DNA of 64,000 bases, taken from positions 62,001 to 126,000 of the forward strand of contig CACFIH010000003.1 of assembly GCA_902566365.1 (NCBI GenBank), read 5' to 3'. Numbering within the stretch: the first letter of the stretch is position 1; every line of letters begins with the position of its first letter. The DNA is from an uncultured Pelagibacteraceae bacterium. GTDB taxonomy: Bacteria; Pseudomonadota; Alphaproteobacteria; Pelagibacterales; Pelagibacteraceae. Below the pieces are notes generated by a model that was not told where the DNA came from, made no database searches, and worked only from the letters and a program-made list of their open reading frames with translations. Of the stretch, positions 16,742-17,773 are shown piece by piece. The position numbers were made by a program, and so were the translations under genes.

Positions 16742-17038
16742 TTATAGATAATCATTTTTTTTAATTTTACTAGATATTTGTTTTCTAGAGTATTCAAATT
16801 TTTTTCTGTGTTTAATACTTTTTTCGTGAACTCTTTTTCTCCATAATCTAAATGAGGATGGTTTAAGAGACCTCCTCATTAATTTAATAACATCTGACTC
16901 TGACTTCCCTGTCCTTTTTTCAATTTCCTCAAAAGTGATCCTGTCAGCCCAGGCTGCCCAGATGACCCAATCTGGATCCTCTAATTTTGGCTCAGGATTT
17001 TTGACCCTGGTTACAGGCCTGTGACCTTTTTTTTTCAT
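16742..17038 (-). CDS. TIGR03643/DUF2805-like small protein
   Basis: DPDWVIWAAWADRITFEEIEKRTGKSESDVIKLMRRSLKPSSFRLWRKRV. Confidence 0.8.
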   Translation of the reverse strand: MKKKGHRPVTRVKNPEPKLEDPDWVIWAAWADRITFEEIEKRTGKSESDVIKLMRRSLKPSSFRLWRKRVHEKSIKHRKKFEYSRKQISSKIKKNDYL

Positions 17039-17063: not shown

Positions 17064-17158
17064 TATAATGCATTTTTTTTTGGATCTGATATATTCAGAT
17101 TTGATAGTCCTTCTTAGCCATCTTTAGCTCCCGGTTTTTAAGGACTATCTTTTTTTTT
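17064..17158 (+). ncRNA. Candidate small RNA or attenuator leader: TATAAT box, hairpin 1, hairpin 2 and a T9 tract, ending at the start codon of the LysE-like gene
   Basis: TATAAT 17064-17069. ATCTGA/TCAGAT stem 17084-17089/17095-17100. GATAGTCCTT/AAGGACTATC perfect 10-bp stem 17103-17112/17140-17149. T run 17150-17158. Confidence 0.55.
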
Positions 17159-17773
17159 ATGCTTCCTTTAGATTTTGTCCTTTTTTTACAAATTATTATT
17201 TTTCTGTTTATTACTCCTGGTACTCCAAGAATAGTAATTGTTTCTTATTCGATGAATTATGGAATTCGAAATTGTGTTTGGACTGCATTTGGAGATATTA
17301 CTGCAAATTTTATTCAAGCAACTTTAGTTATTTTTGTTTTAGGAACTTTTCTTTCTGAAAGTCCAACTTTTTTAAATTTTTTTAAATGGATTGGAGTAAT
17401 TTATTTACTTTATTTAGCTTATGATGTTTATAAATCTGCACCAAAAGATATCAATTCAAAAATAATTTCATCAAAAAGTGTATTTTCTTTTTTTAAAGAT
17501 GGCTTTTTAGTTGCAGGAACAAGTCCTAAGGCTTGGCTATTTTTTCCTTTAATATTTCCACAGTTTATTGATTTTAATTCCAATTATGTTGTTCAATTTT
17601 TTATTTTGATCACAACCTATGTAGTATTAGATTTTTTATCTTTAATTGGTTATGCAATCCTTGCACAAAAATTAATTATTTGGATAAAAGCTAATCCAAA
17701 AACAATTAATACAATCTCAGCGAGTGTTTTAGTTGTTATTGCTTTAATAATTATTGTTACACAACAATATTAA
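17159..17773 (+). CDS. LysE/RhtB-family translocator
   Basis: LFITPGTPRIVIVSYSMNYGIRNCVWTAFGDITANFIQ; about 6 TM. Confidence 0.85.
   Translation: MLPLDFVLFLQIIIFLFITPGTPRIVIVSYSMNYGIRNCVWTAFGDITANFIQATLVIFVLGTFLSESPTFLNFFKWIGVIYLLYLAYDVYKSAPKDINSKIISSKSVFSFFKDGFLVAGTSPKAWLFFPLIFPQFIDFNSNYVVQFFILITTYVVLDFLSLIGYAILAQKLIIWIKANPKTINTISASVLVVIALIIIVTQQY

Follow-up and report, generated by a model that had tools for sequence, protein, structure and literature searches.

The loop of the Pelagibacter rhtB hairpin matches the translation start signal of an unlinked basic-peptide gene, suggesting a small regulatory RNA

SAR11 bacteria, which rank among the most abundant cells of the ocean, possess very few regulators, and the question raised by the locus described here is what a compact hairpin is doing between two divergent genes of one of them. 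The window, which is the whole stretch of DNA that was analysed (64,000 nucleotides from an uncultured Pelagibacteraceae bacterium), holds a divergent gap that an initial annotation had put at 120 bp, and it does run that length, from a DUF2805 gene (17038) to the ATG of an exporter (17159). Using a covariance model, we matched the element in this gap to the Rfam family RF01814, "rhtB", over its full length (positions 1-83; 79.7 bits, gathering cut-off of 55 bits). Structure and context agree with this assignment, as the element is a single bulged hairpin with a conserved loop that lies between a hypothetical gene and rhtB. Meyer et al. (PMC2704228) reported the rhtB motif from Candidatus Pelagibacter ubique in 2009 as a single bulged hairpin whose function was then unknown; about half of their examples were followed by a U-tract, and copies also lay upstream of proC and liv genes. 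Besides that paper, our literature search found no work on rhtB RNA. The features of the locus are as follows.

16742-17038, minus strand: divergent DUF2805/TIGR03643 gene (PF10985, E = 4e-26), by synteny the conserved 5' neighbour of the hairpin.
17067-17072, plus strand: AATGCA at the -35 position of the hairpin promoter, with a 17-nt spacer (offset counts in relatives).
17087-17095, plus strand: extended -10 box TG-A-TATATT, within the small hairpin of the initial annotation and kept in relatives.
17103-17149, plus strand: core of the rhtB hairpin RNA, 47 nt (RF01814 match at 17085-17167; pair counts).
17103-17112, plus strand: 5' arm of the lower 10-bp stem (folding; pair counts).
17114-17132, plus strand: antisense segment UUAGCCAUCUUUAGCUCCC, complementary to the translation start of an unlinked basic-peptide gene.
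17116-17119, plus strand: 5' arm of the upper stem, AGCC, pairing with GGTT at 17133-17136 (folding).
17120-17132, plus strand: apical loop, 13 nt (folding).
17140-17149, plus strand: 3' arm of the lower stem, holding AAGGA (folding; pair counts).
17150-17158, plus strand: T9 tract directly before the exporter ATG, not conserved.
17159-17773, plus strand: rhtB, a LysE/RhtB-type exporter of 204 aa (PF01810, E = 2e-24).

Much of what the initial annotation had read from these letters was confirmed, namely the perfect 10-bp stem (17103-17112 with 17140-17149), its extension into the loop by inner pairs (AGCC/GGTT), the T9 that ends exactly at the exporter ATG and the LysE-like nature of the exporter itself. 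We also observed that codons 2-3 of rhtB (17159-17175 and relatives) are often CTC CCC (ATGCTCCCC...), which is unusual for a genome of 28% G+C and resembles the CUCCC in the nearby upstream loop. L191, L192 and L193, which comprise DUF2805 genes from another family and a paralogue in G073, show other contexts and no accompanying hairpin.

We then asked whether the hairpin is under selection as RNA. The 95-nt stretch folded at -25 kcal/mol, compared with -12.1 ± 2.6 kcal/mol for shuffled sequences (z = -5.1; none of 200 shuffles as low). Across 27 distinct hairpins, 99.5% of stem-pair cells were paired, and 11 cells had changed on both sides (4.2 in shuffles), with two-sided changes in three pairs. 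One-sided stem changes produced G·U pairs, which are tolerated by the plus-strand RNA only. The proposal of a compact structured RNA on the plus strand is thus borne out both by fold energy and by the compensatory and G·U stem changes among relatives. A minus-strand transcript was rejected, since the reverse strand scored 23.1 bits and the G·U pairs break there, as was a short minus-strand reading frame (MAKKDY..), which is stopped in variants. Stem and loop together had a mean nucleotide identity of 94%, compared with 78% for the adjoining DUF2805 gene and 60% at its third codon positions; the most conserved part of the element is the loop, which lies outside the inverted repeat.

The DNA upstream of the stem was conserved as well. 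An extended -10 element, TGnTATAnT, was present in 171 of 172 distinct relatives and stood 6-8 nt before the stem in 170. Of the 172, 134 had AATGCA with a 17-nt spacer (offset -23 relative to the -10 hexamer) and 24 more had it with an 18-nt spacer (offset -24). The extended -10, at its fixed distance, places the 5' end of the RNA at the foot of the large stem. The transcript is therefore predicted to start at about 17102-17103 and to have a core of about 47-56 nt, which replaces the 5' end near 17076 and the sRNA of 75-80 nt envisaged in the initial annotation. Two motifs noted there need to be read differently: a TATAAT box does occur at 17064-17069, but it overlaps the -35 position of the hairpin promoter and is not a conserved -10, and the letters of the small hairpin ATCTGA-TATAT-TCAGAT are present (17084-17100), but they are really the extended -10 and not a conserved structure. 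As a structural part this small hairpin was rejected, with just 13 of 159 distinct upstream 20-mers folding with at least 6 pairs. At the level of sequence, the RNA thus has a predicted promoter of its own that is independent of the downstream gene, being present in 171 of 172 relatives and kept where rhtB is missing.

RF01814 scored above the cut-off in 95 of 200 relatives, all of one genus, and among the Pelagibacter genomes of a family-wide draw that were at least 90% complete, 106 of 113 carried it; all named RF01814 records belong to Pelagibacteraceae or Pelagibacterales. Two matches in the genus g34 were set aside, one lying at a contig end in a genome with 7% contamination (G357) and the other being spurious (G297). 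A phage origin was likewise rejected, with no match to the hairpin in 2.9 million viral contigs.

What, then, could the invariant loop recognize? Taken as its reverse complement, the loop region gives CCGGGAGCUAAAGAUGGCUAA, which is a ribosome-binding site followed by a start codon. The exact string GGGAGCTAAAG occurred at four places in the genome that the window comes from, namely the hairpin, two sites that lack a start codon and one directly at the ATG of a small gene; apart from the hairpin, that genome had a single start codon at which the loop complement recurs perfectly, GGGAGCTAAAGATG. The gene in question is unlinked to the hairpin and lies outside the window (G000:C7:29784; locus L197/L291). 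It encodes MPKRRKKAAKKKKAKKKAKKRRRR, and the translation start of the gene for the Lys/Arg-rich peptide of 20-41 residues is GGGAGCUAAAGAUG. Relatives of the peptide are 20-41 residues long and rich in Lys, Arg and Ala, resembling protamines or histone H1; a Pfam search of these basic peptides gave no family match, and a literature search for such a peptide in Pelagibacter found nothing. The gene (L291, G000:C7:29753-29930) carries a TTGACA promoter box, a hairpin in its 5' UTR (ACGAATC/GATTCGT) and a terminator, and it is easily missed by gene callers. Adjoining it (L197:1649-2536, minus strand) is a gene for a protein with a Lys-rich N-terminus and, by eye, a CarD-like domain.

The complementarity between loop and target spans 14-18 contiguous nt across the Shine-Dalgarno (SD) sequence, the spacer, the AUG and codon 2, and is therefore extended and directed at a functional site of an unlinked mRNA. 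In lineages with GCU as codon 2 the predicted pairing is an uninterrupted 18 nt (-35.3 kcal/mol in G231), whereas in lineages with CCU, this genome included, one C-C mismatch interrupts it and 14 contiguous pairs remain; this uncompensated mismatch at codon 2 was present in 28 of 61 genomes. The suggestion that the CUCCC loop acts as an anti-Shine-Dalgarno element accordingly holds as far as base complementarity goes, with the loop predicted to pair with the SD of the target. Since an SD and an AUG are common to all mRNAs, only the spacer and codon 2 are specific to the target. In every complete locus of the target-locus genome set, the start region was GGGAGCUAAA[G/A]AUG.

The variable position in this region allowed loop and target to be compared across the 61 genomes in which both could be read. 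The loop CAUCUUU was always accompanied by the target AAAGAUG (55 of 55 genomes; loop C, target G) and the loop CAUUUUU by the target AAAAAUG (6 of 6 genomes: G071, G113, G377, G452, G037 and G079; loop U, target A), and no mixed combination was found among the 61. The co-change concerns one position, for which the best tree of the neighbouring proteins needs 3 changes and well-supported branches force 1, so that the full concordance of seed and target would reflect between one and three independent compensatory events. Hairpin and target were also both kept in at least 8 genomes in which rhtB is absent downstream (G094, G110, G114, G019, G053, G081, G037 and G119). In G275, G323 and G331 the hairpin was not detected, yet the same target start region was kept.

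Sister genera served as a control. Searching the other genera of the family with a covariance model of the target transcript, we found the basic-peptide gene in all ten other sampled genera with a clear match. Their SD was GGGAG or GGAG throughout, whereas the SD-AUG spacers varied (GAAAAG-type, AUAACG, AUAUA, CUGACA, AAAAAA, GAACGGAG and AGUAAAG); a frozen spacer is thus confined to lineages that have the hairpin RNA. Counting against the antisense reading, these genera keep the target without the RNA. The pattern GCCATN{5,8}CTCCC revealed no second antisense site to their own start in sister-genus genomes, which may carry an antisense hairpin that is built differently. Within the covariance searches we also noted weak second RF01814 matches (26-32 bits), several of which are the antisense strand of the start of the basic-peptide gene (e.g., G012:C1:1188125-1188190), which hints at a possible origin of the hairpin in an inverted copy of this region.

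The antisense match of the loop to a start signal suggests a small regulatory RNA that switches the basic protein off, and we consider it probable that the element is an antisense sRNA acting in trans and without Hfq, and that it also serves as the 5' leader of rhtB. A short transcript would start at the foot of the 47-nt hairpin, and its 13-nt apical loop would make the first contacts with the basic-peptide mRNA along the unstructured stretch from SD to AUG. Melting of the 4-bp upper stem would then allow pairing over 14-18 contiguous nt from the SD through the second codon, which would block ribosome loading and repress translation of the peptide. The active form may be the free hairpin RNA or the rhtB mRNA with the hairpin at its 5' end; at loci with rhtB downstream, one promoter would serve both sRNA and exporter mRNA, such that the amount of sRNA would follow the rhtB/liv promoter. 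We infer the accumulation of the RNA, the pairing and the repressive effect from the sequences compared here. Hfq (PF17209) was found in none of 31 SAR11 genomes (controls: 5 of 14 positive), which argues against an Hfq-dependent sRNA; an Hfq-type chaperone is not available in these genomes, which is consistent with a stable stem and an open loop.

Among the alternatives, the one that survives best holds that the RNA has several mRNA targets, of which the basic-peptide mRNA is one, and that the CUCCC loop is a general anti-Shine-Dalgarno element. We scanned both strands of a complete relative (G012, 1.34 Mb) for duplexes, and the best site, its own locus aside, was the target start at -28.8 kcal/mol, followed by a site at -25.6 kcal/mol. 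The further G012 sites at -22 to -25 kcal/mol speak for additional targets, but the basic-peptide site clearly ranks first and, as the one site compared for conservation, showed co-change with the loop, and we regard a general role as possible though rather unlikely.

That the hairpin acts solely in cis on rhtB is improbable. Under this explanation the stem would hide AAGGA, or T9 would terminate transcription, until a signal such as an amino acid relieves the block, and several observations are in its favour. The rhtB ATG lies 4-14 nt past the stem in 139 loci, which leaves no room for another promoter between hairpin and ATG, so that the rhtB mRNA must begin with the hairpin; AAGGA within the 3' arm of the lower stem is possibly the Shine-Dalgarno sequence for rhtB; and a regulatory function or conserved termination were the options raised by Meyer et al. 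(PMC2704228). A role as leader would nevertheless leave unexplained the invariant loop and its antisense match to an unlinked start region, and the linkage in cis is not constant. In 30 of 169 scored loci rhtB was not the next gene, yet promoter and hairpin persisted there, in many cases intact with the next ORF 188-596 nt away, and the RNA is thus not just an exporter leader. Nor was a terminator or alternative structure conserved: a T-run of at least 6 came after the stem in 73 of the 139 loci that have rhtB and in 11 of the 30 that lack it, about half of loci, so that termination here is not a conserved function and T9 is possibly a terminator tail in this lineage only. A riboswitch or attenuator that ends before the exporter, one of two options in the initial annotation, therefore cannot be the whole story, and the other option, a free sRNA, is favoured by the promoter and hairpin that stay where rhtB is absent. 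In one locus (L240, in G441) rhtB looks decayed right after a nearly intact hairpin, which supports the RNA persisting past loss of the exporter.

A simple conserved intrinsic terminator, or a protein-bound DNA inverted repeat between divergent genes, was likewise raised in PMC2704228 and would suit the 10-bp repeat and T9 of this lineage, but it is very improbable given that the U-tract is present in only about half of loci, that wobble changes preserve pairs only in plus-strand RNA, that the most conserved part is the loop outside the repeat, and that a promoter directs transcription into the hairpin.

Building on the antisense sRNA reading, we tentatively propose a wider one, which we hold to be less likely than not to be right in full. 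A dual-function RNA would have been born in the genus Pelagibacter, serving both as exporter leader and as a stand-alone, Hfq-less sRNA on a protamine-like peptide, and linking transcription of a nutrient exporter to nucleic-acid packing or something similar; the sRNA function alone would retain the hairpin after exporter loss.

Compared with RF01814 as described in PMC2704228, sequence, structure and gene context are the same, and the RNA itself is therefore known. Its probable target, the basic-peptide mRNA, and its role are new, as are the promoter at the foot of the stem and the argument for an independent RNA that is drawn from its persistence where rhtB is missing. The rhtB RNA has stayed an orphan since its description in 2009, and a target defined down to the pairing site lets its function be tested directly. 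It would also be a candidate for a base-pairing sRNA in bacteria that lack Hfq, and it draws attention to a tiny basic protein, found across the family and apparently undescribed, as worth regulating.

Two groups of known systems invite comparison. ShoB/OhsC and TisB/IstR-1 are trans-encoded type I toxin-antitoxin RNA pairs, and the element resembles them in that a small RNA is complementary to the mRNA for a tiny peptide whose gene lies elsewhere. Unlike the small, hydrophobic, membrane-active peptides of type I systems, the peptide here is rich in Lys, Arg and Ala with no Pfam match, and sister genera keep it without the RNA. Other alphaproteobacteria have trans-encoded sRNAs with CUCC-type loops that block translation initiation regions (TIRs), such as the Cuckoo/alpha-r14 group, with which the rhtB RNA shares a C-rich single-stranded segment facing Shine-Dalgarno sequences. 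Rfam showed no sequence family relation between the two, and the sampled SAR11 genomes are without Hfq; moreover, in contrast to a short, generic anti-SD, the pairing predicted here is long and gene-specific.
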